DNA of 64,000 nucleotides from a virus: positions 62,001-126,000 of IMG/VR virus record IMGVR_UViG_3300021963_000021; one strand, given 5' to 3'. The position numbers were made by a program, and so were the translations under genes. Below the pieces are notes generated by a model. It ran no database searches. It was given only the letters and a program-made list of their open reading frames with translations, and was not told the DNA's origin. Positions 5,101 through 44,047 of this stretch are shown here, in pieces. The first letter of the stretch is position 1. Each line of letters opens with the position of its first letter.

Positions 5101-8100
5101 GTTGGCAACTACTGATTTATTACCGCCACCATGTAGATTTCCATCGATCATTAGACCAACGCAGGCAGTACCAAAAGTCGTAACGTTCTGTACATAACAA
5201 GATCTTGTGGTAATCCATGCTCTAGTGTCGCCTGTGCCCCATCCTGGGTCAAGAGATACATAAGCACCTGCGGTAGGACGTTTTGTACCATACGCATTAA
5301 CCGCACCTAGTGTGCCTGTTAATCCCTGTACTGTGCAGTTACGTAAGCCAGTGCTGTTTCTAACCAAGAACATGTTCTGTAATAGAGAACCAGTTACACC
5401 GTTGACATACAATTTTGCTGCTGTCAGTGTTGCGTAATTGCCTGTGTATATCAAATCATATTTGAGAGCGTCGATATACTCACTGACATCACGAGCGCAG
5501 GCTGCTAGAGTATATGTGTAACTAGGATACGCATTCGCGATGTAAGCGTGTATTTCAGCTATGATAAATGATCTATTCAATTCTAACTGTCTTACCGCAG
5601 CATAGACATCGTAAGCCGACACAGGAGCAACTGTTCCTGACATACTAGGAGCAGAACCAGAAGAATTAACATAGTAATTGATGTAGTCGTATGCGTTCTG
5701 TACTAATCCCTGTGCTAATGTGCCTTGTGTGGCTGTGGCAAACGGTTTAGTTTGACTCTGTGTCAACGTATTAGGATTAGAACCTGTGGTTGTTTTGGTT
5801 ACTGTCGAACCTTGTATTATTGTTGTAACTATTGCTTTCAGTCTTGTTAACGCATCAAGACTCTTGGCAACATCACCTACTCCAATTTGACTCGGCGCTG
5901 GTCTAATATTTGTAGATCTTAATTCGTCTCCGACTACTGCTGTATTGATAGGTACAACAATAGGCAGTGTTTCGTAGAATACACCAGTCTTAACCAGTAT
6001 TGTTCTTTGAGGTAATACTTCAACTGGAATATTTGTAGAAGTTCCGGCCAGTACGTTTACATATACTATGTCTTTTAAATCAGCTAACTGATCTAACGCA
6101 TCTTGTTCGGCAGTATAGCTAATATCTTGTATTTGTAATATTCTATTGCCAACAGTTATACCATTCAATGTTTGATAGTTTGCTGCCGGAGGAGTATTAG
6201 TCAACACCGCAGCAATAGCCACTGTGTTAATCGCATATTGTAATGCCGCTACAGTTTCCTGTTCTTGGCCTAGAGAATAAACGTTAGGAGCATTATTAAT
6301 GTATTCTAATGTAGCTCTTCTTGTGTTTGCGTTGCCGCCTTGACGAACGTCTTTGATCAACGCATCAATGATATATCCTACATCTCGTTCGCATTTAGTT
6401 TTGTCATAGGTAAATCCAGACACGAACGGTGAGATATTATTTGTTCTTTGGTAATCGATCCATTCAACAGTTTCACGTTGTATAAATTGTCTATTGATTT
6501 CTAATAGATATGCTGCCTGTGGATTTCTAGCACCTTTTTCTATTTGCTGGCAGGCGTATTGTATGGTATTCCATGGCTTGTCTAAGGTTATGCCCCAAGT
6601 TGGAGCAGGACTGTCAGTGCCAGCAGTATCAACATAGTACAGCTGATCAATTAATCCCCAATACTTCCACTGCGGAGCACTGGCGTTACTGACTACTAGT
6701 ACCTGACCATCAGATCCGATTGGCAGTCTTGTTGGTCCTGCGCCACCATAATAAACGATATCGCCTTGTGTAGTTAAAACGTTAACTTCACTACCGACTG
6801 ATAATACATTCCAATAAGTGCCAGTAACATCAACATCTGGTCTTGTTACTAGAGTTCCTACAGTTAATGTCGAACCATCATCACCCTCTGAATGGTGAGC
6901 ATTTACACAGATATAGCTGTTAGGACCGTATCTAACAGCATCTCCTAGCATGTAATCGTAGTCATCTCTCCATTGTCCTAACCAACGGATACCGCTGTTT
7001 AGTCTTGACCAGTAGCTTGGATTCGCTGGGTGGGCAGTAACTGTTACAGTCATTGACCCTGATGATGTCTGTACATCAACTGGTGTAGACCCATTTTCTA
7101 AAACACGAACGGTAAATTGCGTACTGCTAGGTACACTGTTTACATAATAGGTAACGTTATTTTGTATGTTACCAAATGTTGTGCCACCGAAGCGCACACT
7201 CATTCCTACTACAAAACCAGTAGTATCGCCTACAGTTATTCTTTTTGTAGCAACATCTGTGGCTGTAGCAGTTGCGGTAATATTAGGTACATCAACAACA
7301 GCGATGTAGGTATATCCGTTTAGTCTTACTACATCTCCGACTTTATAGTCTAATGTGTAATCCCAATCGTTTTGTAATTTGAAACCAGTAGTAAACAGAT
7401 CCCAATTCTGTGATCCTGTCACTGCTGTTGTAGGTTTAATATTGCTGTGGTTAGTCTTTGCTATGTAAGCATAGCCACCGTAGGTAATGACGTCACCTGG
7501 TTGATAAATTGTTGCCGAATTCCATGAGCTCTCAAACTCAAGACCTTCAACAAATCTAGCCCAGTATCCAGAATCTTCGTCATCTTCGAATGTAGTTGTC
7601 TGAGATGATGTGTGCTTTGCTGTACAGATCCACAAACTAGCACCGTATTTGACAACATCGTTGATTTTGTAGTCGACGTTATAGTCATCCCAGTCACCAA
7701 GATATTCGATACCTTGGTTAAAATAATCCCATTTTCCTTGATCATCTTCAAGACCTAGAGTAAATGTAGCTGCTGATGTATGACCTTCGTTACAGACATA
7801 TGTTGTACCACCAAACTTAACTACGTCATTGATTTTATATCGATAGCTAGTAGTCCAATCAGTTTTCCAATCAAACGCCTCTGAATAGATATCCCATTTA
7901 GCTAAATCTTCTGCTATTCCAGGAGTTACTCTGCCTAGCCCCTCTAGACCTTGTGTGATAGTAGAAGCTGATGAATGTCCTAGATTACATAGGTAAAGAT
8001 TACCGCCGTATTTGACGATATCGTTTAATTTGTATCTCGTTGAAGTAGTCCAGTCGCCCTTCCAGTCAAATGACTCGGCAAATTGATCCCACTTTGAAAG

Positions 8101-8451
8101 TGTGCTATCGCCTAGATCTAGATCTGCTTCAAGCCCAAGTGCTAGCGTGGCAGCGGAGGTGTGCCCAACTGTACAAAGATAGACTTGCCCACCGTATTTT
8201 ACTATGTCATTTTTATAGTAAACTTCTCCAGTGACCCAATCGCCTCTCCACTTTGTTCCGTCCGAGATTTGATTCCATCTTGCTGGTACGTTTTCAGCGT
8301 CTACATAAAAGTCCGTATCTGCTACGTGACCGATAACGCAGATGAAAACTTTACCGTTGACTCGTACTACGTCATCTTTGACGTAGGTGGTCCCGGCAAC
8401 CCATTCGCCTTTCCAAATAAAGCGTATTCTACCTAATTTAAACTCAGCCAT
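2191..8451 (-). CDS. Giant tail-fibre-like protein A1 (2086 aa): CBM repeats, beta-helix, Asp-box propeller
   Basis: I place the start at ATG 8451 (MAEFKLGRIRF), matching the paralogue A2 and giving good spacing from CGGAG; a TTG at 8454 is also possible. Residues ~1-530 hold eight repeats of the form W-x-GDW...Y-x-x-NDIVKYGG-x-x-Y-x-C...HTS, resembling CBM5/12 chitin-binding-type modules. Residues ~600-1160 form a pectin-lyase-like beta-helix (VSLDPGW, SCYVQNVTTFG, DGIGVWC) interrupted by two related helical insertions (~640-810 and ~850-1020). Residues ~1470-1715 carry about six Asp-box units (YSTNGGETW, WTSITYGAG). The C-terminus has RLTGHDFLDIGTGNF and DGNFRVGD modules shared with the other giant fibres. 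Probable role: long receptor-binding fibre with glycan-binding capacity (inference). Paralogue of 8504-14590. Confidence 0.85.
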   Translation of the reverse strand: MAEFKLGRIRFIWKGEWVAGTTYVKDDVVRVNGKVFICVIGHVADTDFYVDAENVPARWNQISDGTKWRGDWVTGEVYYKNDIVKYGGQVYLCTVGHTSAATLALGLEADLDLGDSTLSKWDQFAESFDWKGDWTTSTRYKLNDIVKYGGNLYLCNLGHSSASTITQGLEGLGRVTPGIAEDLAKWDIYSEAFDWKTDWTTSYRYKINDVVKFGGTTYVCNEGHTSAATFTLGLEDDQGKWDYFNQGIEYLGDWDDYNVDYKINDVVKYGASLWICTAKHTSSQTTTFEDDEDSGYWARFVEGLEFESSWNSATIYQPGDVITYGGYAYIAKTNHSNIKPTTAVTGSQNWDLFTTGFKLQNDWDYTLDYKVGDVVRLNGYTYIAVVDVPNITATATATDVATKRITVGDTTGFVVGMSVRFGGTTFGNIQNNVTYYVNSVPSSTQFTVRVLENGSTPVDVQTSSGSMTVTVTAHPANPSYWSRLNSGIRWLGQWRDDYDYMLGDAVRYGPNSYICVNAHHSEGDDGSTLTVGTLVTRPDVDVTGTYWNVLSVGSEVNVLTTQGDIVYYGGAGPTRLPIGSDGQVLVVSNASAPQWKYWGLIDQLYYVDTAGTDSPAPTWGITLDKPWNTIQYACQQIEKGARNPQAAYLLEINRQFIQRETVEWIDYQRTNNISPFVSGFTYDKTKCERDVGYIIDALIKDVRQGGNANTRRATLEYINNAPNVYSLGQEQETVAALQYAINTVAIAAVLTNTPPAANYQTLNGITVGNRILQIQDISYTAEQDALDQLADLKDIVYVNVLAGTSTNIPVEVLPQRTILVKTGVFYETLPIVVPINTAVVGDELRSTNIRPAPSQIGVGDVAKSLDALTRLKAIVTTIIQGSTVTKTTTGSNPNTLTQSQTKPFATATQGTLAQGLVQNAYDYINYYVNSSGSAPSMSGTVAPVSAYDVYAAVRQLELNRSFIIAEIHAYIANAYPSYTYTLAACARDVSEYIDALKYDLIYTGNYATLTAAKLYVNGVTGSLLQNMFLVRNSTGLRNCTVQGLTGTLGAVNAYGTKRPTAGAYVSLDPGWGTGDTRAWITTRSCYVQNVTTFGTACVGLMIDGNLHGGGNKSVVANDFTQVLSDGIGVWCTNLARTELVSVFSYYGHIGYLAENGGKIRATNGNSSYGTFGCVSEGVDPTETAVTGTVNNRFEEAAIAKVITNNSAIQRVEFLNAGSDYTSATYTFNGAGINADTTGNEVRDNAVFEVRLTDPADNYGGADYISVENVAQTGSSTSITLAATDGNTSSAYVGMRIFLTSGTGQSQFGYINSYNSGTKVAQVYKESTGTAGWDHSVPGTTITAPDASTQYVIEPRLTFTAPTLTDTVTGTLPVTVGVNEVAYVQTRSSHSAVAATGGAGTLATFDVVRVGLVYTVTLNAGGTGYAVGNTLTIAGTSLNGTATTNNLTIKVTNVTSPAGVITGFTYTGYGRGGNYVAVPVSGSSGMYSRDAVTWTSATLPAAQAWSSVASGTISTTVYTVALPNTGSTTAAYSTNGGETWTTASLPQTGTYNAVAFGNGRFIGVRGDSATPVISTNGTTWANGANPLPNSVTTWTSITYGAGKFVAVATGTNGAGYSLDGITWVTATMPASTTWSSVTFGNNRFVAVNSTGTAAAYSINGTTWTTVSSPPGANRVSYGQGVFLGTRIDSAGTSIWTSPDGIVWSTRTVTSGRYAKPALGNTNWTPRWALISNTTGTTGRYVVAGATTQARCSITDGKITQIRIVEPGSGYASAPTMTITDPNNTVEAPHTVRTGRGALGNPTFNNRGTLWVTATSTVAGDGYADFYQPGGYVDVKDLYSVPVAGSNVVFSSLPNNYYKLVTVTNLAGTGPYTARLQISPALTISEAPAHEESFETRIRYSQCRLTGHDFLDIGTGNFTSTNYPGLPYTDPDQDSETVESGGGRVFFTSTDQDGNFRVGDLFTIEQATGTASLNASAFNLAGLQELQLGSVELGTGGATITEFSTDPFFTADSDTVIPTQRAIKAYIASQIGSGSSTLNVNTLTAGSVFVSGSTITTTTGFKITVNTKLEFTRGIDGYPVAMNLFLQG

Positions 8452-8477
8452 CAATCACTCCGCATATGATGTTAGTA

Positions 8478-8503: not shown

Positions 8504-11500
8504 TTAACCCAAATCTCTACCAGTTTCTTGCCAATCTAGCTGCGAATTAAAGCTATCTGCAAACATACTCCATGCTGTCATATATCCACCCGCACCCTTT
8601 TTAAACAATACTGGCACTGTAATTTGATCCCTAATACCTGTGGTATTTCCGATACTGTCTGGCCCTATTGATACTGTACCAGCTATCAAACGACCTGTAG
8701 CAGCATCAGATCCACCTCCCGAAATACGTCTACCAATATAGGCTTTGATCGCTTTCTGCGTCGGCACTATATTGTTTGAATCTGCGGTAAATGTAGCATC
8801 TGTAGAAAATTCTCGGATAACTACACCAGTACCGCCCACTCTAATACCACCTAATCTAATTTCTGATAAACCGCTTAGGTCAAAATAATCAGCACTAATA
8901 GTAATAACACCCGTGGCCTGTTCAACCGCAAACAATTCTCCTACTCGGAAATTACCATCTTGGTCGGTCGATGTATAGAAACAGCGACCACCGCCTCTGT
9001 AATAAATTTCTTTGTCTGGTTGGAAATTGTTAACAGCAGTGTAAGGATAATTTGTATCTATAAAATTACCAGTACCAATTTCCAAAAAGTCGTGTCCAGT
9101 TAATCGAACTTGACTGTATTTTTCACGTATCAATACCTCAGTGCCGTTTACAGGCGCATTGGTTCTTGTAAATGCTGGACTTACTGTAACTGCTATTCTA
9201 GCATTTGGAACTGAACCGCTCACAAGGGCAACAGTTAACACCCTGTAAACAGTGTCGGTGGATCCGTCTGGGGCTACAATTGAAGTTGTTCCGGTGCCAA
9301 CTGACACATAAACGTTAGCACCACCTATAATGCTAGTGCCAGCCGTTAACGGATAAGGTCTTTCTTTCCATATTAGACCGTCCGTTGATGTAACAAATTC
9401 ATCAACGTTATTGCCAACTACAATAAATTTTTTGTTGGCAAATGTAGCAGATCTCCAATCACCAACAATAGGCAATGTACCTTCAGTCCAGGTAGTTCCA
9501 GCATCGTCAGTCCACGCATAGGTATCACTACCAGATGCAAAGACTACAAACAAATTTTTACCATATGTAACTGCGGTCCATGATTGTGTTGATGACAGTG
9601 CTATGCCGTTCCAATTTATACCGTCGTTTGATGTAGCTCCGACTGTGCCTCCTGATGCTACGGCCATAAACAGACCGCTGCCATAAGTTACTGCTTCCCA
9701 GTTTGCTGACGAAGGCATAGAAGATTCTAGCCAGGTTGCGCCACCGTCGATAGAATATGCTGCTTTGTTAGATCCAGAAGCAACAGCAACAAATGTACCG
9801 CCGCCAAATGCTAAAGAAGTCCATGTTCTTCCTGCTGGTAATGTTGAAGACGACCAAGTAATTCCAGTTGTACTGTAGGCTGCGTTAGTTGATGATTTAG
9901 CTATTGCCGCATAGTATCCGTTGCCGTAGGCCACGCTAGTCCATGCTGCCGATGTTGGCATTGTAGCTGATGACCATGAAGTACCGTCTGTAGAATATGC
10001 TGCCTGTGTAGTTGGTGCTCCGGTAGTGCCTGCTACTGCAACAAATCTAGTACCATAGGTTACTCCTGACCAATTATTGTTAGACGGCATATTGTTTTCC
10101 ACCCAACTGATTAAATCTAATGTAAGGTTAGCACCTGTTCTTGGCAGTCTTGTTACGTTATCTAATATCAAAGCCTTTCCTACAGGATATATGTCAGCGT
10201 AACCATCACCGCTGACTGTTACAATAGTTGTAGAAGTTTTATATCCAAGACCTCTATTGGTAAATGTTGGGTTTCCTAACACACCTACACCGACACGACA
10301 TTCTATATTCACCTCTGAGGTGTTGTTTGGGTCTGTGAGGACCGCTGTGGGCGTTGTTAGATATCCGCTACCTGGCTCCCATAGTTTTATTCTAGATACT
10401 CTACCGCCATTAATTTCCACACGGCCTTTGGCTGTAGCACCATAGTTAATGAGATTACCATTGGTTCCTGTGCTAGGTATAGTAATCCAAGCACCATTAT
10501 TATTTGGATTACCAAATGCTGCCGATACTCGTCCTAAATTACCAGTAACTGTTTTTGCTACCCAATAATTACCATCATCGGAAAATGCCACCGTAGCTGT
10601 TGTAGATGTTGATACTGCTAAAAACTGTCCCTGTCCGTAGGATACATGATTCCAGTTGCTTGATACCGGCATCACTGTAGCATACCAATTAATACCGTTG
10701 GTACTTACTGCTGCTGCGCCAGTTCCTGAAGCTACGGCTACAAATGCTCCGTTACCAAATGTTATAGATGTCCATGTTGCTGTTGCTGGCAGTGTTGTTG
10801 CTGTCCATGTCTGGCCGCCATCTGTTGAATAGGCCGCAGCGTTGCTGGTAGTTCTTATAGCTACAAATTTTCCGGCACCGTAGGCTACTGATGCCCATAT
10901 TCCGGTACTTGACAGCGTCGATGAATTCCAACTTAATCCGTCTGCGCTGTATGCTGCTGTTGTTCCTGAAGATGCTGATATAGCAACATAAGCGCCGCCA
11001 CCATAGGCCACCGAAGACCAGTTAGTGGTTGTGCCAGGCATCGATCCTGTACTCCAAGAAGTTCCGTTAGCACTCACTGATACCTGTGCTGGACTTCCTA
11101 CGTTTGTTGCGTTTGTAGCTACTGCTACAAAGTTTCCACCGCCATATGTTATAGAACTGTATGCGCCACCAGCAGGAACTGGCAGAGTTGCTGTTAATAG
11201 CGATGACCCGTTATAGACTGACGCAGTACCAGATGCTCCTAACAGCACCCATACTCCTGCCCCAAACGCTGAGTCTACCCAAGTTTGACTAGGTACTGTC
11301 AACACTGTGTTAGAATAATCTGGTGTGGTAAATGTTATTCTAGGTTCAATACGATATACAGATGTAGTATCTAGTAATGCTATATTTTGTGTGGCACCGT
11401 TAACATGCTGGAATCCTGCCTTGTGGACGTACATTAACCCTAAGCTGGTTGTTATGGATTCCGCAGAACCCCCTGGTAGTGTACTCACAGCAAACTGTGT

Positions 11501-14500
11501 GCTTGAAAAATTAGCAGCAATAACGTAATATAGTTGTCCTGTAGATACACCGCCAAACACACCACCAGCAGTTCCGTTAACTGTGATATTAGCCGTAGTC
11601 AGTGAATATGTAGATCCAGTTGGAGTTTGTCTTAATTTGATTTTTGTTTGACTAACAATCTCGTCAACATAATAGGTAGTAGCACCTGAAATATTACCAA
11701 TCGACACTTCAAACTGTATAGGCATACCTACAGCCAAGCCAGTTGTGCTGTATAATGTCACAGTGTTAGCACCGACTAATGAACCGGTAGCAGTTACAAC
11801 AATCGTTTCATAACTGAAATAAACTGGCATACCAACATATAGACTTGATGTGTCAGCTACTGTAATTAGATTATTTGTAGAACTAGAAACTGTGGCATTT
11901 AATCTTGTAAAATTTTCACAGGCTATAGCTACTTCTTTTGATACTGTATTATAAGCGACTATCTGTCCATACTGACCAGTTCCTGTACCACTTTGTATAA
12001 TCAATCTTAGACCATAATAAATGTCTATGTCGTTTTGATCACCTGTGGCAATAGTGATAGAATAAGGATTTCCTGCTTGAGCATTGTTACCAGTTGATAT
12101 GTAACTACCACCGCCAATACTGCCTGTGGAATCAGCAGGATCTAAAACTCGAGCTTCAAAAATAGCGTTGTCTCGGAATTCGTCACCGATTACTGCTGCG
12201 TTAACACCTGATCCTGAAAACGCATAAGAAGCTGTTGTATAATTTTCGCCAGCATTTGAAAATTCTAGTTTTAAAATTTCATCATTGGCTTCGCCGGAGA
12301 ATGCGCTAACTACCTGTGCTTCTCTAGTTCGGTTATTAATAGTTCCAGGCACTGGTAATTCGTCGTCATCAACACCTTCTGCTACACAACCGTATGTACC
12401 ATAAGAACTGTTACCGTTAGTAGCACGTATCTTGCCACCATTCTCAGCTAGATAACCAATGTGTCCATAGTATGAGAACACTGAAACAAGTTCTGTTAGA
12501 CCTTTATTAGTACACCATACACCAATGCCGTCTGATAAGACCTGTGTAAAGTCGTTGGCAACGATAGATCTATTGCCCCCATTATGTCTAGCACCGTCAA
12601 TTTTAAGACCAGTACAGCCGTTACCAAAAGTTGTAACGTTCTGTACATAACAGGATTTTGTATTAATCCATACAGATGTATCGTCAGGACCATACCCAGG
12701 ATCTAGAGATACATAGGCACCTGCGGTAGGACGTTGAGTTAGGTACTCATTGAACGGGCCCAACGTACCATTGAGACCTCGCAATGTCATGTTACGAATA
12801 CCTGTTCCGTTGTTTACATGGAACATGTCTTCAGTTTGTGTGCTGATAGTTGGTTGTATAATAGTACTGCGTAGTTCTTCACCTACTAGAGCAACATCTC
12901 TAGGAACTTTGATAGGTAATATTTCTGTATAAACACCTACCTTAATAAAAATAGTAGCAGGACCAGATATACTGCCACAGGCATATTTTACAGTTCTCCA
13001 AGGAGCATTAATAGTTGTTCCGTTTCCGGGCTGATCAACACCATCTGGACCTACATAATATATTTTTTCAATGAACTGGAAAGTGTCCCAATCAATTGAA
13101 TTAGATGAATTAATTTTTAAAGCCTGGCCTTCTGTACCAATAGGCAACCGTGTGTTACCTATAGAACTACCATCTTCTTTGATTCCAAATAGTTTTATAT
13201 CGCCTTGCTCTCTCAATGATCCCCATTGATCGCCTAGAGCAACTAGTGTCCAAATTCCGCCGGCACTGGTATCTGGTCTAGTTGACGGTGAAGAAAGATG
13301 CTGAGTTAAGCAACGATAGGTGTTACTTTCAAATGTCAGCATATCACCGATGGCATATTCAAAATTATCTTGCCAACGCCCCTGCCATTTTTCTCCAGGA
13401 ACTAAGAGTTCCCAATTAATAGAATCAATGTTAGGATCGCTGGCTACATCGGCTGTAGCTACATATAATTGACCCTGACGTCTTAGTACATCGCCTACCT
13501 GATAAGAAGTCGCGGCGGTCCATTCGCCTTGTATCTTAAATCCCTTAGTCAACAGTTCCCAAGAATCAACGGAACTATCGCCTAACGCAGTTGACGGAAT
13601 AACATTTATGTTATTGATTAACGCATAGTATGAATAGCCGCCGTACTTGACTACATCACCTTTTTGATATATTGTAGTGCTGTTCCATGTATTTTCATAT
13701 TCAAACCCTGGAACATAAATGATCCATTTTGTAAGATCAAAATCAACAGCAGAAGTATGATGCTGCGAGCAGATCCATATACCTGCTCCCCATTTCACAA
13801 CATCGTTTACTTTGTATCGATAGCCGTCAATAGGTGTAGGTGAGGTTACTTCAGGTACCCAATTGCCTTTGTAATCTATACCATCATTTACAATTTCCCA
13901 ACTGCTTTGATCGTCTTCTAATCCTGCTTCGGCATCAGGTGCTGAAGTATGTGCTACTATACAACGATAAACAATTCCACCGTACTTGACAATGTCATTT
14001 AATTTATATTTTGTATCAGTGGTCCAATCACCTTTCCACTTTTCAGATAATACTACAGTTTCCCAAGAACCAAAGTTGCCTTCGAGACCAGCAGTTGACG
14101 CAGCACTGGTATGAGCAATTATACAGCGATAGACAATACCTCCCCACTTGACTACATCATTTTCAGAGTATTTGGTATTTTGTGTCCAATTACCTTTCCA
14201 TTCTTGACCTCTAGCATAAGATGCCCATTTAGGTTGGTCAGATTCTAGTCCGGAAAGAGCGTTATTCGATGTGTGTCTTAGCACACAGATATAAACAATG
14301 CCGTTGTATTTTACAAGATCACCAGTGTTATAAAAAGTAGTCGGTTGCCAATCACCTTTCCACTCGTAGCCGTCGAACATCAATTCCCACTGAGGGTCTG
14401 CTGTAATAGGTACTGTGGTAAGATCCTGTTTTTCTAAATCGGTATAAAAATTAACATCCGATGTATGACCGTGTAGACAAACATAGCTTTTACCGCCATA

Positions 14501-14590
14501 TCTAACTATGTCGTCTTTTACATAATTGTGACCAGCAGCCCAGTCACCTAACCATGTAAATTTTATTCTACTTAATTTAAATTCAGCCAT
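8504..14590 (-). CDS. Giant tail-fibre-like protein A2 (2028 aa): CBM repeats, beta-helix, two Asp-box propellers
   Basis: Paralogue of A1, with the same N-terminus (MAEFKLSRIKFTWLGDW) and eight CBM5/12-like repeats over residues ~1-435. The beta-helix (~530-760) is uninterrupted and lacks the helical insertions of A1. A first Asp-box block (~1130-1365, about six units such as YSADGLSW, YSTDGGQTW) corresponds to the one in A1. A second block (~1495-1770, about seven units) is inserted in a linker that is continuous in A1. The C-terminal region carries VRLTGHDFLEIGTGNF and DGNFRVGE modules. A perfect late box lies 24 nt upstream of the ATG. It is likely a virion fibre. Whether A1 and A2 hetero-assemble or are alternative fibres cannot be told from sequence. 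Confidence 0.85.
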   Translation of the reverse strand: MAEFKLSRIKFTWLGDWAAGHNYVKDDIVRYGGKSYVCLHGHTSDVNFYTDLEKQDLTTVPITADPQWELMFDGYEWKGDWQPTTFYNTGDLVKYNGIVYICVLRHTSNNALSGLESDQPKWASYARGQEWKGNWTQNTKYSENDVVKWGGIVYRCIIAHTSAASTAGLEGNFGSWETVVLSEKWKGDWTTDTKYKLNDIVKYGGIVYRCIVAHTSAPDAEAGLEDDQSSWEIVNDGIDYKGNWVPEVTSPTPIDGYRYKVNDVVKWGAGIWICSQHHTSAVDFDLTKWIIYVPGFEYENTWNSTTIYQKGDVVKYGGYSYYALINNINVIPSTALGDSSVDSWELLTKGFKIQGEWTAATSYQVGDVLRRQGQLYVATADVASDPNIDSINWELLVPGEKWQGRWQDNFEYAIGDMLTFESNTYRCLTQHLSSPSTRPDTSAGGIWTLVALGDQWGSLREQGDIKLFGIKEDGSSIGNTRLPIGTEGQALKINSSNSIDWDTFQFIEKIYYVGPDGVDQPGNGTTINAPWRTVKYACGSISGPATIFIKVGVYTEILPIKVPRDVALVGEELRSTIIQPTISTQTEDMFHVNNGTGIRNMTLRGLNGTLGPFNEYLTQRPTAGAYVSLDPGYGPDDTSVWINTKSCYVQNVTTFGNGCTGLKIDGARHNGGNRSIVANDFTQVLSDGIGVWCTNKGLTELVSVFSYYGHIGYLAENGGKIRATNGNSSYGTYGCVAEGVDDDELPVPGTINNRTREAQVVSAFSGEANDEILKLEFSNAGENYTTASYAFSGSGVNAAVIGDEFRDNAIFEARVLDPADSTGSIGGGSYISTGNNAQAGNPYSITIATGDQNDIDIYYGLRLIIQSGTGTGQYGQIVAYNTVSKEVAIACENFTRLNATVSSSTNNLITVADTSSLYVGMPVYFSYETIVVTATGSLVGANTVTLYSTTGLAVGMPIQFEVSIGNISGATTYYVDEIVSQTKIKLRQTPTGSTYSLTTANITVNGTAGGVFGGVSTGQLYYVIAANFSSTQFAVSTLPGGSAESITTSLGLMYVHKAGFQHVNGATQNIALLDTTSVYRIEPRITFTTPDYSNTVLTVPSQTWVDSAFGAGVWVLLGASGTASVYNGSSLLTATLPVPAGGAYSSITYGGGNFVAVATNATNVGSPAQVSVSANGTSWSTGSMPGTTTNWSSVAYGGGAYVAISASSGTTAAYSADGLSWNSSTLSSTGIWASVAYGAGKFVAIRTTSNAAAYSTDGGQTWTATTLPATATWTSITFGNGAFVAVASGTGAAAVSTNGINWYATVMPVSSNWNHVSYGQGQFLAVSTSTTATVAFSDDGNYWVAKTVTGNLGRVSAAFGNPNNNGAWITIPSTGTNGNLINYGATAKGRVEINGGRVSRIKLWEPGSGYLTTPTAVLTDPNNTSEVNIECRVGVGVLGNPTFTNRGLGYKTSTTIVTVSGDGYADIYPVGKALILDNVTRLPRTGANLTLDLISWVENNMPSNNNWSGVTYGTRFVAVAGTTGAPTTQAAYSTDGTSWSSATMPTSAAWTSVAYGNGYYAAIAKSSTNAAYSTTGITWSSSTLPAGRTWTSLAFGGGTFVAVASGSNKAAYSIDGGATWLESSMPSSANWEAVTYGSGLFMAVASGGTVGATSNDGINWNGIALSSTQSWTAVTYGKNLFVVFASGSDTYAWTDDAGTTWTEGTLPIVGDWRSATFANKKFIVVGNNVDEFVTSTDGLIWKERPYPLTAGTSIIGGANVYVSVGTGTTSIVAPDGSTDTVYRVLTVALVSGSVPNARIAVTVSPAFTRTNAPVNGTEVLIREKYSQVRLTGHDFLEIGTGNFIDTNYPYTAVNNFQPDKEIYYRGGGRCFYTSTDQDGNFRVGELFAVEQATGVITISADYFDLSGLSEIRLGGIRVGGTGVVIREFSTDATFTADSNNIVPTQKAIKAYIGRRISGGGSDAATGRLIAGTVSIGPDSIGNTTGIRDQITVPVLFKKGAGGYMTAWSMFADSFNSQLDWQETGRDLG

Positions 14591-36430: not shown

Positions 36431-38968
36431 TTAGACACGGGCGGATGCCAGTGCTCTGACCTTAGCTCTTTCAAGATCTAATTCATCTTTGGTCAGAGAT
36501 ATAAGGGTCTTTACATTACTATTTAAGTTAACTACAAATTCTGCTGCGATAAATTGACCCGCTTTCATCATTAAACTGCTCTGTTGGGCAGGTGTTGTAA
36601 CAGCTTCTTCGTTGTGTAGAACAGCAAGGGTTCCTGAACCAAATTGACGGAATAGATTTCCATATTCGCCCAGTGTACCTTTACTAAACGATTCACCGTT
36701 TATATCAAGAACTGGTCTAGTAGGCGGTAATGGTATTCTTGCGCCTTCTAGCCATGTGTCTGCGTAGGCACCGATTAGATCACCAGTCATAACTTTACTA
36801 TCTTTAAGAGTTTCCATCAGTTGACGATTAGACTGTGGAGGGTTAGTTCCTGAAGCGATAGCATTTCCTGGACCCATAATACGATACACTGCTTTTACTG
36901 TGCCATCTTCATTTTCAATTTCAGCAGAGATATAATCATACGGATAAGCGCCATGGGATTTGTATCTGATTATACCGCTTATAGCAGCACGAATAGGATC
37001 ACCTTGTTTTACATTAGGTTGATTATATTGCCCAGTCCTTGTCATCCTGTCAACAATACCAGGTTTTTTCCTCATACTGATAGTAAGTAGTCCATCAACT
37101 ACAACAATACTGTCAATTTCCATACCATCTTTGTCAGCAGCCCGTAGATTTTTATAAAGATCTCCTCTGGCAATAGTTTTTCTTCCACCATTTATGTCTA
37201 TCATTTCTACAAGATTTGATTTAGCTGGATCAGCGTTGCTTAACGCAGCCATACTTGGTAGTGCTTCTCTACGTCTTTCTAACGCATTAATATCTCTATT
37301 AATTCTGTCTGCCCAAACATTCCCCATAACACTATCGCCAAACGCTAATCTCACACCAGCTAATTTCACATATAGATACAATCGTTGGGCTAACATTTCC
37401 ATTTGTCTTTTCATTATACTATTAGTGCTGTCATCGGAGAATACACTTAATATTGTGCTTATAGTATTGAAAACATTTAGAAAAAGTTTATTAAGACCTT
37501 TGCTGTAAGTTTCAATTTTTTCGTTAAATTTATATTTTGAAAGCATTACTCCTATCTGCTCAAAGTACGGAGTTAGGCGAATCATTACTTCGTCTTTGAA
37601 TTTCCTAATAGTCACAGTCATTTCATTCATTGCTGCTGTAAATGCTTCTTGTTTATTCATTTCTGCGAGTATTTTTGCTATGCGATCTTTAACCTGTTGA
37701 GAGGTCATCCCGTTTACTGCGCCAAAATTATTAAGGAATGCTCTAACTCCTTCTGTCGATTTGACCATATCGTCTAGACCTTCATAATTTGTCGACGTAG
37801 CGTTAAGCTGATTTTTTAATGCTTCAATGTCTTTGTTGATTCCCGGTATATATTTTGCCATTATAACTTCAGAAGCCTTAGAAAACTCTGCTGGCGGTGT
37901 AGATGAATCTGCTAGAGCTAACAGCTCTTCTAACATCGCTTTACTGTTTGGAGAAAAAGTGCCCAGCTGGCGACCCAACACAGACATTTCTTTTTGTCCC
38001 AGACCAGCAGATACTACATAGTCTCTACCAGCTTCGCCAAAGACTGCGTCGGCTAGTGTTAATGCTTTTAACATTTTATTACGTCTGCTTTCGCTGCCTT
38101 GTTCCAGGCTCAATCTAAACGCATCATTTTTCATAGATTCCATGACGCCCTGTTGTTGCTGCTCATTGTTTTTACCGGTCATCATGGTTATCATTTGCTG
38201 ATACTTTGTGTACTCAGCAAATGATTCTGTTTGTTTTTTATAAGCCATCTTGCTGCTGTCAGTGCTTCTAATGACATTAGTGTAATAGAACATGAATCGT
38301 TGACCAACATCGTCTACTGATAGTCCTAGATTTAATAAGTCCGATGCTAATGAATTTTTTCCTTCCCAGAGTACTTTGGTATATCTATTAAAGATTTTAG
38401 CACCTTGTGTTACAGTTCCTCCAACTTCGGCAAGTTTACGACTGTTTTGTGCTAACAGCGCAGCATAAGAATCTAAATCCATATGTGCTTCAGCTGCTGA
38501 CCTTCTTAGTTCTGTTATGCTATTTCCAAAAGAAGCACCCACTTTAGAAGTCTGCTGTAGTACATCGTTCCATCCTTCAAATACCTGTACAGCAGTTATC
38601 AGTGCGCCAGCAAGTTCGCCCATAGTTTCTCCAACTATAGGTACTTTTTTTACAAAATTATTATTAAGTGCCGATGCCCATTCTGAAGTCTTGTTAGACC
38701 CTTTTTCCATCAAGTTCGCAAAGTCTCTGGCTGTGGTCCTTCCCCACTTTTCAACTTTGTTAGAAAGATTTTTTATCTTGTTGGATTCTTTTTTAATACC
38801 AGAAACAAAAGAATTTCCTGGACCAGCTCCGCCTCCACCATCATTTATTTCGTCTTCTAGATCACTAAATGCGTTCATTAGATCACGCATTGTAGATTCG
38901 CTAGCAGCGTTGGCAAAAATCATTTTGCCATATTGATCTGAAATAAATTCTACGGTTCTATTAGCCAT
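36431..38968 (-). CDS. Tape-measure-like protein with decayed M23 fold (845 aa)
   Basis: Paralogue of the 870-aa gene immediately upstream. The two share MAN-x-x-VE starts, a hydrophobic/amphipathic segment at ~120-150 ending in FEGWNDVLQQ (FESWNESLKK in the partner), GGTVTQGA and the C-terminal TLISLTKDELDLER. Residues ~650-740 (DPIRAAISGIIRY, AEIENEDGTVKAVYRIMGP, MTGDLIGAYADTW) follow the course of the M23 domain in the paralogue but lack the HxxxD and HxH zinc ligands. The length, helical character and virion context suggest a tape-measure/internal tail protein. That assignment is inference; a T4 gp29 relationship is not shown by sequence alone. Confidence 0.65.
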   Translation of the reverse strand: MANRTVEFISDQYGKMIFANAASESTMRDLMNAFSDLEDEINDGGGGAGPGNSFVSGIKKESNKIKNLSNKVEKWGRTTARDFANLMEKGSNKTSEWASALNNNFVKKVPIVGETMGELAGALITAVQVFEGWNDVLQQTSKVGASFGNSITELRRSAAEAHMDLDSYAALLAQNSRKLAEVGGTVTQGAKIFNRYTKVLWEGKNSLASDLLNLGLSVDDVGQRFMFYYTNVIRSTDSSKMAYKKQTESFAEYTKYQQMITMMTGKNNEQQQQGVMESMKNDAFRLSLEQGSESRRNKMLKALTLADAVFGEAGRDYVVSAGLGQKEMSVLGRQLGTFSPNSKAMLEELLALADSSTPPAEFSKASEVIMAKYIPGINKDIEALKNQLNATSTNYEGLDDMVKSTEGVRAFLNNFGAVNGMTSQQVKDRIAKILAEMNKQEAFTAAMNEMTVTIRKFKDEVMIRLTPYFEQIGVMLSKYKFNEKIETYSKGLNKLFLNVFNTISTILSVFSDDSTNSIMKRQMEMLAQRLYLYVKLAGVRLAFGDSVMGNVWADRINRDINALERRREALPSMAALSNADPAKSNLVEMIDINGGRKTIARGDLYKNLRAADKDGMEIDSIVVVDGLLTISMRKKPGIVDRMTRTGQYNQPNVKQGDPIRAAISGIIRYKSHGAYPYDYISAEIENEDGTVKAVYRIMGPGNAIASGTNPPQSNRQLMETLKDSKVMTGDLIGAYADTWLEGARIPLPPTRPVLDINGESFSKGTLGEYGNLFRQFGSGTLAVLHNEEAVTTPAQQSSLMMKAGQFIAAEFVVNLNSNVKTLISLTKDELDLERAKVRALASARV

Positions 38969-38971
38969 GTA

Positions 38972-41584
38972 TTACCCTATTAGATTACCTGAAAGTTTTC
39001 TAGTATAGTCTATTTGTTCTCTATGTAAAGATTGACGGTCTTGGGTCAGTTGTATTAGTGTTGCCATGTTAGTGTTAAATTCAGAAATCAAATCTTGTAG
39101 ATTTACATTAGCGCCATTTTTAGCAATATTTTCCATTTGACTGATATCTAACTGAGCAGTGTCAGAAGGTGCTGCTCCCATGGTTCCTTTATTATATTTG
39201 TATATTTGTCTAGGATCTAAAACATTTTCATTAAATTCAAAACCTTTTGCTCTATAATCACCTTTGGTCATTTGGAAATGAAGATGTTTAGGAATAGCAG
39301 ATCCGTCTTTGTTAGTTCCAGTGTTACCCATGAAACCAATCATTTGATCTTTTGTTACCTTCTGTCCATTGATAGCTTCCATGGTATCTTTGCCTCGATC
39401 AGAAAGATGCATATAGATCGAAGTTAGATCAGCGTCGGGGTGATATATCTTAACCATATTTCCCTGAGGTTTACCTGTATCATAGCTGGAAGATGCTATA
39501 CCTGCAGCAATCGACCTAATAGGAATATCTGTGTCAGATTTATCTTTTGGTACTATGTCATTGCCATAGTGGTAATTGCCATTAGGGCCGTTTCTAGGTC
39601 CTACTCCGGATGTCATAACATAGTTTTCCATGTTAGCCATTGGAGTGCTTAGTCCTTCAAGTTTGCCTGAGCTGACTACTGTTGCTGTATCAGTTGTGAC
39701 ATTTCTACCCGAAGGAGTTACTACATTTCCTCCCGGCGCAGGAGCTGCCTGGGGTTTGCCTCCCGGTCCTGATACTATTCCGCCTTGAATCGGCAAGGCT
39801 TTTGCTCCTAGGAAATTAGAATCGCCTGTTATGCCTGTGACACCTAATGATTCTGCCCGTTGGACTCGTCTTGCTTTTGCCTGATTAACTTCAGCTCTTT
39901 CATCTTCAGGAGTTATTTTTCTGTCTTTATACTCACCTTCTTTGCTAAATGCTCTCATAAAAGCATATTTTGAAGTTATCATCATTCGTTCAAAAAAGTA
40001 TTCTATCTCACTTTTAATAAACTCTGTGCCTTTTTCTGATTGTAGATTAGTGAAAAAAGAATCTATAGTTGGTAGTGTTATAGCTGCTAGTTTAACTAAT
40101 GATTCGCCAAATTTTCCTAGCATTCCGGGAATATCGTATTTGCCTATCGCATCACTGAGTTTTCTAAAATAAGGAAGTAGTGCTATAATAAATTCTTTCT
40201 TAAACTCATCAAAGGCCAACGCCATGTCATTCAACAATTTTGTCAATGGACTTCGTTTCTTTGCTTCAGCATCTGCTGCGTCATAGGCATCAAGAGCATT
40301 GGCCACAGATGTTTTTCCATCTCTAGTAAATCTTATAAAACTTCCTGTAGCACCCGATAACGCTCTATTCAGTTCGTTGTTGCCGCCATCCATTTGAGAA
40401 TAGACCTTTAGAATCCTGTCATTGGCCTTGACAAAATCTATAATCCCTGCTGCGTTATCTCCGTAGGCTTTTCTTAGTATAGGTTCAAATTGTTCTACAG
40501 TCACAGTAGCATCTTTGGCTTTTGCCAGAATCTCTTGCATAGATATACCTGACTTGGCGATGCTTTGTTTTAGTATTTGAGCCTCCATGCCAAACGGTTC
40601 CATGCCTAGTGCGTTGGCTTTATAGAGTTCTGCTCCTGCTTTTCCGTACAAACCTGTGAACATAGCCAACGCTGCGTCCATTTTAGCTGCTCCAAGTGGA
40701 CCTTGTTTGATTTTTTCTCGTTGGTACTGTAGATCCTGTGTAGCCACAGCCATTTGTTCTTCAAGCTGAGCTGCTGTTACACCAGTGATCTTTGTTAATC
40801 TTTCTAGATTTAATTGATAAAATCCAAACTGTTTATTAAAATCAGCGTCAGATAATTTTTTTCTATCGGCTCCTCTCATAGTATTCTTCATGAAATTCAT
40901 TTGAGCTTCAGAAACGTCCTTGGCACTGTAACCAATCTGTCTAAAGATTTCTCGACCAACACCGCCTTGCTTGTTTATAACTTCATTGTAGTGCGCAAAG
41001 TCTTCAGCACCTTGTGTAACTGTGCCGCCAAATCCTGCTAGAAATTCTGAGTTTTTGTTTATAATGCCTACAAAATCATCCAACGACAAGTAAGTCCTTG
41101 CCGCTGCTAATCTCATTTCTAAAATGCTGTTGTTAAATGTTGCGCCCGATCTGCTGGATTTTTTAAGACTTTCGTTCCAAGATTCAAATTGCTCTATGGT
41201 GTAAGATATCGTATCGCCAAATATGCCCAGCACTCTACCAAATATTGGTATTTCTTTTAAAACTTGATTGCTTAGTACACTGGTATACGAACTGATTTTA
41301 TCATTACCCGCAGCCATAAGCCCAGCAAATGAACCCATAGCACCTACAACGTTACCTATCTGATCTGCTACAGCACCTGCGGCTTTGCCTAGTACCGAAG
41401 CCGGACTTACTGAGCTGCCCGGAGCTTCGGCGGGTCCGGAACTTGAAGAAGCATTAGACCTCTTCATTCCTTTGTTCATATTGTTTACACTACGAACTAT
41501 TTCCTGTAAGGTAGCCTCACTGGCAGCATTCATGATTGTGCCGGATAATTGATTACCTAATATTTCAACTTTTGTATTAGCCAT
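38972..41584 (-). CDS. Tape-measure-like protein with M23 endopeptidase domain (870 aa)
   Basis: The N-terminal half is helical with hydrophobic stretches (GRVLGIFGDTISYTIEQFES). Residues ~645-790 form an M23 peptidase domain with the expected zinc ligands: YHYGNDIVP (H-x-x-x-D), GNMVKIYHPDADLTSIYMHL and HLHFQMTKG (H-x-H). M23 enzymes cut peptidoglycan cross-bridges, so this protein could open the host wall during DNA injection, as some tape-measure proteins do. The baseplate hub gp5 here lacks a lysozyme domain, which makes such a division of labour plausible (inference). A perfect late promoter lies ~60 nt upstream. It is separated by 3 nt from its M23-dead paralogue. Confidence 0.75.
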   Translation of the reverse strand: MANTKVEILGNQLSGTIMNAASEATLQEIVRSVNNMNKGMKRSNASSSSGPAEAPGSSVSPASVLGKAAGAVADQIGNVVGAMGSFAGLMAAGNDKISSYTSVLSNQVLKEIPIFGRVLGIFGDTISYTIEQFESWNESLKKSSRSGATFNNSILEMRLAAARTYLSLDDFVGIINKNSEFLAGFGGTVTQGAEDFAHYNEVINKQGGVGREIFRQIGYSAKDVSEAQMNFMKNTMRGADRKKLSDADFNKQFGFYQLNLERLTKITGVTAAQLEEQMAVATQDLQYQREKIKQGPLGAAKMDAALAMFTGLYGKAGAELYKANALGMEPFGMEAQILKQSIAKSGISMQEILAKAKDATVTVEQFEPILRKAYGDNAAGIIDFVKANDRILKVYSQMDGGNNELNRALSGATGSFIRFTRDGKTSVANALDAYDAADAEAKKRSPLTKLLNDMALAFDEFKKEFIIALLPYFRKLSDAIGKYDIPGMLGKFGESLVKLAAITLPTIDSFFTNLQSEKGTEFIKSEIEYFFERMMITSKYAFMRAFSKEGEYKDRKITPEDERAEVNQAKARRVQRAESLGVTGITGDSNFLGAKALPIQGGIVSGPGGKPQAAPAPGGNVVTPSGRNVTTDTATVVSSGKLEGLSTPMANMENYVMTSGVGPRNGPNGNYHYGNDIVPKDKSDTDIPIRSIAAGIASSSYDTGKPQGNMVKIYHPDADLTSIYMHLSDRGKDTMEAINGQKVTKDQMIGFMGNTGTNKDGSAIPKHLHFQMTKGDYRAKGFEFNENVLDPRQIYKYNKGTMGAAPSDTAQLDISQMENIAKNGANVNLQDLISEFNTNMATLIQLTQDRQSLHREQIDYTRKLSGNLIG

Positions 41585-41663: not shown

Positions 41664-42584
41664 ATGCCAGATTTTGATCCAACTAATTCAGGAATTAGAC
41701 AGAAGCTAGGAGAGGCCGTGCCCACGCAAGCTGCTGCCACTAATCCGTTGGCTTCGTTTTTTAGACAGCCAAAACTTTTTATTTCGTTGCCTAGCAAAGG
41801 CAGATACTACCCAGCAGGTTCTCTAGACACTACAGAAACAGGAGAACATGCGGTATTTGCTATGACAGCCAGAGACGAGTTAATTTTTAAAACTCCAGAT
41901 GCTCTAATGAACGGTCAAGCTACTATAGAAGTAATCAAAAGTTGTATTCCAACTATCAAAAATCCATGGGTAATACCTAGCATTGACGTTGACGCTATTC
42001 TAGTAGCTATCAGAATGGCTACCTACGGCACAGAAATGGATGTAACCACAGGCTGTCCCAAGTGCGGAAACAGCAACGATTTTGCTGTGGACCTTAGAAC
42101 AGTTTTAGATAAGCTAAATCAAATCACTATCACAGAACAGGTAGAGATTGGCACAGACATGCTGATTCATCTAAGACCGTTAGACTACAGTCAAATGACA
42201 AAGACAGCTTTAAAAACTTTTGAACATCAAAGAATTTTTAACATCGTCAATGACGAATCCATGACTGAGGAAGATAAACTTAAGATGTTCCAAGAAAGTT
42301 TTATCAAACTCACAGACATCACTATCGATTCGGCTGTAAACTGTATCAGTAAAATTGAAAGCTCAGCTGGCAGCACAGACAATCCAGTTTACATCAAAGA
42401 GTTTTTACAGAAAGCTGATAAGTCAGTGTTCCAAAAAATCAATGAAGCTATCAACAAGTCCGCTGAAAAAGGTACAATGAGCTCGTTTTCAGCTACCTGT
42501 CAAAATGCCGAATGTAAACATGAGTGGAATGTGAACCTTACTATGGATCAATCGGATTTTTTCGGTCAAGGCTTTCGCAACTAA
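41664..42584 (+). CDS. 26: gp26-type baseplate hub/tail assembly protein
   Basis: The 306-aa protein resembles gp26 of T4-like marine phages: SLPSKGRYYPAGSLD, ELIFKTPDALMNGQATIEVI, SCIPTIKNPWVIPSIDVDAI, and two Cys pairs, CPKCGNSND (~131-134) and CQNAECKHEW (~280-285), that could bind one zinc. It lies on the opposite strand from the neighbouring tape-measure pair. Near its 3' end, codons 299-300 contain the heptamer T-TTT-TTC, after which a -1 shift would bypass the TAA at 42582 and add 76 residues. The short form is 306 aa and the shifted form would be 376 aa. T4 gp26 is shorter (208 aa). A tape-measure chaperone role, like the lambda G/GT pair, is my inference. Confidence 0.8.
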   Translation: MPDFDPTNSGIRQKLGEAVPTQAAATNPLASFFRQPKLFISLPSKGRYYPAGSLDTTETGEHAVFAMTARDELIFKTPDALMNGQATIEVIKSCIPTIKNPWVIPSIDVDAILVAIRMATYGTEMDVTTGCPKCGNSNDFAVDLRTVLDKLNQITITEQVEIGTDMLIHLRPLDYSQMTKTALKTFEHQRIFNIVNDESMTEEDKLKMFQESFIKLTDITIDSAVNCISKIESSAGSTDNPVYIKEFLQKADKSVFQKINEAINKSAEKGTMSSFSATCQNAECKHEWNVNLTMDQSDFFGQGFRN

Positions 42585-42793: not shown

Positions 42794-44047
42794 TTATCCA
42801 GCAGCGCCTGGAGCAGAAACCTTCTTCAGCATGTTCATGACCTTAGTTGTTGTCTGAGGATCAGCTTTTATCAATGCTGTGAACGCAGTTGCCAATGCCT
42901 GCTGTTGTTTCATAGATAGATTGCCACCGGTCATAACAGCTTTAACAGAAGTCTGTAGTAGACTTGGATCAACACCTGGTAACAGTTGAGCCATTTGTCT
43001 AGCATTTAGAGAACCTTCAACATCGCCACTGCCACCATCAGCTCCGCCGAGGCTTCCTGTGTTACCGCCAGCTGCCTGTGAAAAGCCCTGAGCAAATTTG
43101 CCCATCATGCCTTGTTTTGGTTTGTCTTGATCTAGACCCGGAGTTGTGCCTGAAGCACCTGTGTTGATGTTCTGACCTGCGCCTAGCTTGTAACTATCTT
43201 GTACAGCACGTAACAGTGCTTGGTCAATGATAGAACTTGGTAATACTTTTACATCGCCTTCTTCATCTAGTTCCATGTTTTCTAGATCTAGATTTTCAAA
43301 TGCTTTACCAAACTTGGCTTTAGCTGCTTTAAACCCACCACCTGTGGTTGCGCCTACGCCCTGTTTGGCTTTGAGTTTAGCTTTAAGATCAGCTTGTGGA
43401 TTTGCCGGCGCAGCAGCAGCTGGCTCAGCAGCAGTAGCGGCAGTTGAACCGCCAACACCTGCCAGTGATTTGATCCTTGCCAATGGATCAGTTGTTGTGC
43501 TTGGTACACCTGTTGGCACTGGATTTCCACTAGGATCAGTAACGCTGACATTGGCTTTGGGCGCAAATCCAGCAGGAGTATCTGCGGCTCCGCCGCCCGC
43601 GGCAGGAGTTTCTCCACCTGGTGGTACTTCGATATTACCAGTAGGTTCGATTTTTTGTTGAGCATCGCCACCGGCAGCAGCTTTTTTCTGTGCCATCCTG
43701 TCGCGGAATGCTGAAATGTTTGAAGAACCTTTGCCTAGAACTCCTGTTGGAGCACCAGCGTCATGACCTGCTATAATCTTTTCTACGCCCTGTGTAGGAT
43801 ATCCACTTTGTTGTAAGAACATCATCAACGCTTCGGAATTAGGTTGTTGTCCTGTTTTACCTAGGTACCTATTAAACTCTTTTCTAAGAGCAATAGCATC
43901 GTTACCAGCATCTAATACACCAGTTGATTTACTGTGTCCTAGCTTAGACGCTATTTTGCGTCCAGCACGACCAAATACTCCCATACCTGCGGGTGCTTCG
44001 TCAAGTTGTTGTAATTCAGATTCTGTTATAACGTCGTGGATTTTCAT
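42794..44047 (-). CDS. Putative head-core/internal protein, low-complexity (417 aa)
   Basis: The N-terminus MKIHDVITESELQQLDEAPA contains I-T-E and L-D-E triplets that fit the gp21 cleavage rule (I/L-x-E). Residues ~115-270 are Ala/Gly/Pro-rich linker (AAAAPANPQADLKAKLKAKQ), followed by LPSSIIDQALLRAVQDSYKLG and a C-terminal helical segment (SLLQTSVKAVMTGGNLSMKQ). Short 'MKI-x-D-x-x-x-E' leaders are common on T4-like marine phage proteins that I suspect are packaged and processed. No enzyme domain is visible. It converges on and abuts the gene 26 extension. A late box lies 26 nt upstream. An internal virion protein is my inference. Confidence 0.6.
   Translation of the reverse strand: MKIHDVITESELQQLDEAPAGMGVFGRAGRKIASKLGHSKSTGVLDAGNDAIALRKEFNRYLGKTGQQPNSEALMMFLQQSGYPTQGVEKIIAGHDAGAPTGVLGKGSSNISAFRDRMAQKKAAAGGDAQQKIEPTGNIEVPPGGETPAAGGGAADTPAGFAPKANVSVTDPSGNPVPTGVPSTTTDPLARIKSLAGVGGSTAATAAEPAAAAPANPQADLKAKLKAKQGVGATTGGGFKAAKAKFGKAFENLDLENMELDEEGDVKVLPSSIIDQALLRAVQDSYKLGAGQNINTGASGTTPGLDQDKPKQGMMGKFAQGFSQAAGGNTGSLGGADGGSGDVEGSLNARQMAQLLPGVDPSLLQTSVKAVMTGGNLSMKQQQALATAFTALIKADPQTTTKVMNMLKKVSAPGAAG

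Follow-up and report, generated by a model that had tools for sequence, protein, structure and literature searches.

The degenerate LytM-domain regulators EnvC, NlpD and ActS, and SpoIIQ of B. subtilis, use an M23 fold without catalysis for protein contacts; none is a virion protein, their roles being to activate amidases or to form part of a channel. In Helicobacter pylori, Csd1–Csd2 is a heterodimer of an active and a degenerate M23 (LytM) domain protein encoded as adjacent paralogues. These are cell-shape enzymes that pair via their own helical domains (PMC5053510). Phage tape measures with peptidoglycan-hydrolase domains include the Tmp of mycobacteriophage TM4 (PMC1796659) and gp95 of phiCbK, with a CHAP domain (PMC3556154); in both, the tail protein is long and helical and includes a module that cuts the cell wall. 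Each of these phages is described with a single tape-measure gene rather than a tandem pair having a catalytically dead second copy, and no such pair was found described in the open-access full texts searched. The "two tape measure proteins" of SuMu (PMC3447690) were rejected as a precedent, being database homologues of peptides rather than a tandem pair. Because tape-measure chains are normally identical, their number and arrangement, and the restraint of a hydrolase before delivery, are hard to study. With two distinguishable tape-measure-like chains, only one of them bearing an enzyme, both stoichiometry and enzyme control would become open to direct measurement, and the pairing of active enzyme and pseudoenzyme seen in cellular M23 proteins would gain a counterpart in a virion.

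The DNA analysed here (the window, 64,000 nucleotides) comprises bases 62001–126000 of a 363,943-base (364-kb) virus record. It encodes two adjacent tape-measure-like proteins, B870 and A845, with the following features:

41664..42584, plus strand: gp26/gp51-type baseplate-hub gene, divergent, a flanking landmark (Pfam T4_baseplate, 1e-14; phrog_150 baseplate hub, 2.5e-20)
38972..41584, minus strand: B870, upstream paralogue, tape-measure-like with an M23 cassette, 870 aa (ORF; M23 match, E 8e-13; tree)
39905..41584, minus strand: shared N-terminal core of B870, residues 1–560 (z = 61 against A845; weak TMP_3 match, placed as in A845)
39260..39574, minus strand: M23 peptidase domain of B870, residues 671–775 (Pfam PF01551, 48.9 bits against a cut-off of 28.7, E 8e-13)
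39557..39571, minus strand: HxxxD zinc motif, HYGND, H672/D676 (sequence)
39404..39415, minus strand: third M23 histidine, YMHL, H726 (sequence)
39275..39286, minus strand: HxH motif, HLHF, H767/H769 (sequence)
38975..39214, minus strand: shared C-terminal tail of B870, residues 791–870 (z = 9 against A845; second-domain match of the family profile)
38966..38974, minus strand: B870–A845 junction, TAA TAC ATG, with AGGG directly 5' (sequence)
36431..38968, minus strand: A845, portal-proximal paralogue with a degenerate M23 cassette, 845 aa (ORF; BLASTP against B870, E 1e-46; tree)
37289..38968, minus strand: shared N-terminal core of A845, residues 1–560 (z = 61; all-helical in AlphaFold2; weak TMP_3 match)
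36758..37009, minus strand: degenerate M23 domain of A845, aligned part residues ~654–737, without zinc ligands (hhalign 94.7–95.7%; HMM E 2.4e-5)
36434..36688, minus strand: shared C-terminal tail of A845, residues 761–845, GTLG...LHNEEAV... (48% identity to the upstream copy of contig L003)
34696..36414, minus strand: T4-type portal (gp20), a flanking landmark (Pfam Portal_T4, 3e-109)

The order on the minus strand is B870, A845, portal, and the divergent hub gene lies upstream of B870. Both paralogues are open throughout, as in the original prediction, and the spacer between the TAA of B870 and the ATG of A845 is TAC alone, preceded by the SD-like AGGG. The phage is a T4-superfamily jumbo phage with Rak2-like relatives, having a T4-type portal, capsid, prohead protease, gp55-like late sigma factor and SbcCD; baseplate hub and wedge genes also lie around the locus. 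Its nearest relatives in GenBank are Phosso, Atu_ph07 and PA5oct (portal 50–54% identity). The 417-aa ORF beside the hub gene (42794–44047, minus strand) has no Pfam or PHROG match.

Residues 1–837 of A845 align with residues 1–858 of B870 at 23% identity (BLASTP, E 1e-46). Smith-Waterman comparisons against shuffles place this similarity in the N-terminal 560 residues (z = 61) and the last ~85 residues (z = 9). A family profile of 45 members matches B870 and A845 and no third protein in the 364-kb record. The prediction that the two are tandem paralogues is thus confirmed by sequence comparison over their full lengths. B870 also keeps the M23 zinc ligands ascribed to it, and with the middle histidine, H726, its PF01551 zinc/catalytic set is complete. 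This is the sole M23 domain of the record. Its best PDB match is the Csd1 chain of the Csd1–Csd2 heterodimer (5j1l), a suggestive pointer to a partnership and not proof of one.

Relatives of the pair were gathered through the portal and through alignments, rather than through single-protein scans. Direct tblastn of B870 or A845 against GenBank phages gave no match at 1e-3, and single-protein scans of viral contigs returned nothing or the query itself alone. Because peptide patterns were used to gather relatives, the frequencies given here are not unbiased. Among 73 loci showing a hub gene, one or more family members and a portal (63 after dereplication, as the set includes near-duplicates), 72 have one copy. 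A second survey, with alignments of the upstream copy, found tandem pairs in contigs L136–L142 and L144, besides L093 and L003. The pair, which the original prediction had proposed looking for in related phages, is therefore present in 10 other contigs, making a tandem clade of 11 with the window. All are metagenome contigs, and L137 and L142 are close relatives. Identity to the window is 63–70% for the hub and 82–91% for the portal in the tandem contigs, against below 60% and below 77% in the single-copy loci met in that second survey. Throughout the family the tape-measure-like proteins diverge far faster than the adjoining portal; in L093 the portal is 91% identical and the A845 orthologue 30%.

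In a tree of the core, all duplicated copies form one clade (support 100/99) with the single-copy relatives outside it. Within the clade the portal-proximal copies, including A845, group together (94/92), as do the upstream copies, including B870, with modest support (80/61). An earlier tree left the L003 copies unplaced; they were placed once more pairs had been added. Since upstream and portal-proximal copies group separately, with single-copy relatives outside, the tree shows a single tandem duplication after which the gene order was kept.

The two positions differ in their cassettes throughout the clade. The M23 residue set is intact in the upstream copies of 8 of the 11 contigs, and the upstream copy of L003 has a GH73 domain (2e-21), giving a recognisable hydrolase in nine. 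The other two, L140 (8953–11571) and L141 (1745–4336), have an enzyme-like but unconfirmed M15/VanY-like stretch, RHDxGxAADLDV...HMG, with no match in Pfam, PHROGs or the PDB. No recognisable hydrolase was found in the portal-proximal copy of any of the 11 contigs. A degenerate M23 domain is present in at least three of these copies (A845, L093 and L003), with a weak hint in L144. In L136–L142 the portal-proximal cassettes have no M23 similarity where examined (0.1% probability for L136–L139). Lengths of the upstream and portal-proximal copies are close (870/845, 865/839, 850/840, 845/839, 861/833 and 869/836 aa). The portal-proximal orthologues are open frames of 833–925 aa in nine of the 10 other contigs, the exception being L144, where the copy (11530–14110) is split over three successive ORFs; this may come from frameshifts, from faulty assembly or from genuine decay.

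The cassette of A845 had been read, from a by-eye alignment with B870, as an M23 domain that has lost its ligands. None of the HxxxD, middle histidine or HxH residues is present in A845, as predicted; PF01551 has no match in the protein up to E 10, and no Pfam family matches the cassette stretch. The alignment did not hold pairwise – the two cassettes alone are not significantly similar (z = 1.3, p ~ 0.1) – so the motif match cannot stand alone, and this comparison was dropped as evidence. It was recovered through the orthologues. The A845 cassette is significantly similar to the active copy of L093 (p ~ 4e-4), and A845 alone matches an M23 HMM at E 2.4e-5, a score that none of 416 scored shuffles or 470 natural controls reached. 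A profile of A845 with its L093 and L003 orthologues matches an M23 profile from which B870 and its orthologue were left out with 94.7% probability (hhalign, E 6e-8), and reaches 95.7% in the other M23 profile comparison. The best of 100 column-shuffled controls reached 0.8%, none exceeding the real profile, and the GH73 cassette of L003, a negative control, reached 0.1%. The columns aligned by this profile are those picked out by eye (GDPIRAAISGI..., MTGDLIGAYAD). M23 is also the best Pfam match of the L093 (E 0.0023) and L003 (E 0.015) portal-proximal cassettes, searched as the domain alone, and both of these lack all of the zinc ligands. The orthologue profile matches settle the relationship: as far as sequence profiles can show it, the A845 cassette is a domain of M23 ancestry stripped of its zinc ligands. 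Csd2 keeps three of the five key residues (PMC5053510), and A845 none. Structure prediction, one of the checks originally suggested, was carried out on A845 with AlphaFold2 and was uninformative on the fold of the C-terminal domain. Residues 560–845 gave a pLDDT of 31.5, and in the full-length model (45 sequences) the domain had a pLDDT of about 30–47, with no confident fold. Residues 131–440 were modelled as an all-helical core (pLDDT about 76–96), and Foldseek of the full-length model against the PDB gave no E below 0.001.

It is very unlikely that the A845 cassette is instead an unrelated domain inserted at the same slot. The insignificant pairwise comparison, the frequent cassette swaps across the family, the lack of M23 similarity in L136–L139 and the uninformative structure model would all allow it, but shuffles never approach the profile match, M23 tops the Pfam matches of two orthologues, and the negative controls (GH73 and L136–L139) fail where A845 and its orthologues succeed. 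That A845 is a decaying pseudogene copy, as the word "decayed" in the original prediction might imply, is hardly credible: its ligands are lost, the portal-proximal copies have longer branches and that of L144 is broken up, but A845 is open for 845 codons behind an SD-like AGGG, its shared core and tail are maintained, and nine other contigs have open orthologues. Decay was rejected on account of these conserved full-length orthologues, the portal-proximal copy being kept in all 10 other contigs. The degenerate M23 domain appears instead to belong to a stable division of labour, since related phages keep the same split. Of the predicted duplication followed by conversion to a pseudoenzyme, the duplication and the ligand-less M23-related domain stand, but the conversion is not general. 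As the portal-proximal cassettes of L136–L142 are not M23-like where examined, the pseudoenzyme is a particular case of a wider catalytic/non-catalytic split, and the non-catalytic copy itself is probably the general feature, with pseudo-M23 as one solution.

The single-copy family includes PA5oct gp335, GAP32_244, Atu_ph07 gp197 and a Phosso protein (profile E 4e-73 to 1e-97). PA5oct gp335 is annotated as structural by ESI-MS/MS and the GAP32 homologue as a virion structural protein, which places a single-copy homologue in the virion. As in the window, the PA5oct and GAP32 genes have a gp26-like hub gene on one side and the portal on the other; in Atu_ph07, unlike these, the gp26-like gene is elsewhere in the genome. 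Unlike the window, the Rak2-like and other T4-superfamily jumbo homologues are single-copy and annotated as structural or hypothetical. Their cassettes, near the C-terminus, are GH19, VanY, SLT, GH46, VgrG3-like, others or none, and no M23 domain was found among 63 single-copy relatives scanned. Seven single-copy members, among them the one at 2368–5844 of L007, have a T6SS VgrG3-like domain at the C-terminal end (best E 1.7e-63). This is a lysozyme domain of effector type, which phage tails share with the spikes of type VI secretion systems.

The pair are most probably tape measures, because their homologues belong to the virion, carry hydrolase cassettes that can be swapped and are of a length that fits the tail. 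The Atu_ph07 homologue, of 845 aa, would span about 127 nm at 0.15 nm per residue (PMC3556154), a consistency check against the measured tail of 136 nm (PMC6102473). The paper on that phage names gp701 as tape measure (PMC6102473); gp701, which seems to be 205 aa (by CDS count back from the record end), was not used, being too short for a 136-nm tail. B870 and A845 are long proteins, with a helical model, that adjoin the hub gene in a tail cluster. They are the only TMP_3 matches in the record, at 17.4 and 14.7 bits against a cut-off of 41; no curated tape-measure cut-off was passed, and PhageMin_Tail and TMP_2 have no match to the pair. It is quite unlikely that they are other virion proteins, such as injected (pilot) or portal/neck-associated ones. 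The adjacent portal gene, the sub-threshold tape-measure models and a modelled core that is compact and helical rather than one long helix favour such a role. Against it, in relatives the gene lies directly beside the gp26-like hub gene, the weak TMP_3 match recurs at the same place in several family members, other long window ORFs that were scanned fall into tail-fibre, baseplate or structural families, and the Atu_ph07 length fits its tail. A845 could also be the only tape measure of the pair, and B870 a virion lysin, derived and packaged on its own, whose retained tape-measure core acts as an address tag. A845 does occupy the site of the single copy in single-copy relatives, and the recognisable hydrolases of the pair are all in B870 and its orthologues, but this seems unlikely given that both proteins keep the entire ~560-residue core and the tail at near-equal lengths, which would be superfluous in a lysin carrier, and that single-copy relatives join core and cassette in one protein.

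The joint explanation that is somewhat favoured is one duplication, a mixed tail bundle, catalysis upstream only, and a dead M23 domain with a structural or accessory role. A tape-measure-type inner-tail gene would have duplicated once in tandem in an ancestor of this T4-superfamily jumbo clade, with helical core and C-terminal tail preserved in both copies. Upstream, the gene would have retained a peptidoglycan-hydrolase cassette (M23 here) able to cut the wall at DNA delivery, and the portal-proximal copy would have abandoned catalysis, here keeping a zinc-less M23 as a structural or accessory domain. As cores and tails are kept equal, both proteins probably enter the tail alike; most likely they would be packed in one tail tube, with the enzyme on only some strands of the bundle (B870). 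The dead M23 domain may be a partner of the live one or hold it in place, in the way that degenerate Csd2 pairs with active Csd1. Tape-measure function, co-packing in one tail and the M23–M23 partnership are what we infer for this phage. That the clade as a whole builds a hetero-oligomeric tape measure of catalytic and non-catalytic chains, in which a pseudo-M23 domain serves the live M23 at the tail tip as a fixed partner or as its regulator, is a tentative reading, held with a little less than even confidence. A partnership of live and dead M23 domains cannot be general, because the portal-proximal cassettes of L136–L142 are not M23-like where examined.

Elsewhere in the window, two adjacent tail-fibre proteins of ~2000 aa (phrog_9851; 2191–8454 and 8504–14590, minus strand) each have 5–6 CBM_5_12 modules, which are of a chitin/cellulose-binding type. 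The second (8504–14590) also has a weak EPTP-repeat match. These two proteins are probably another tandem paralogue pair.
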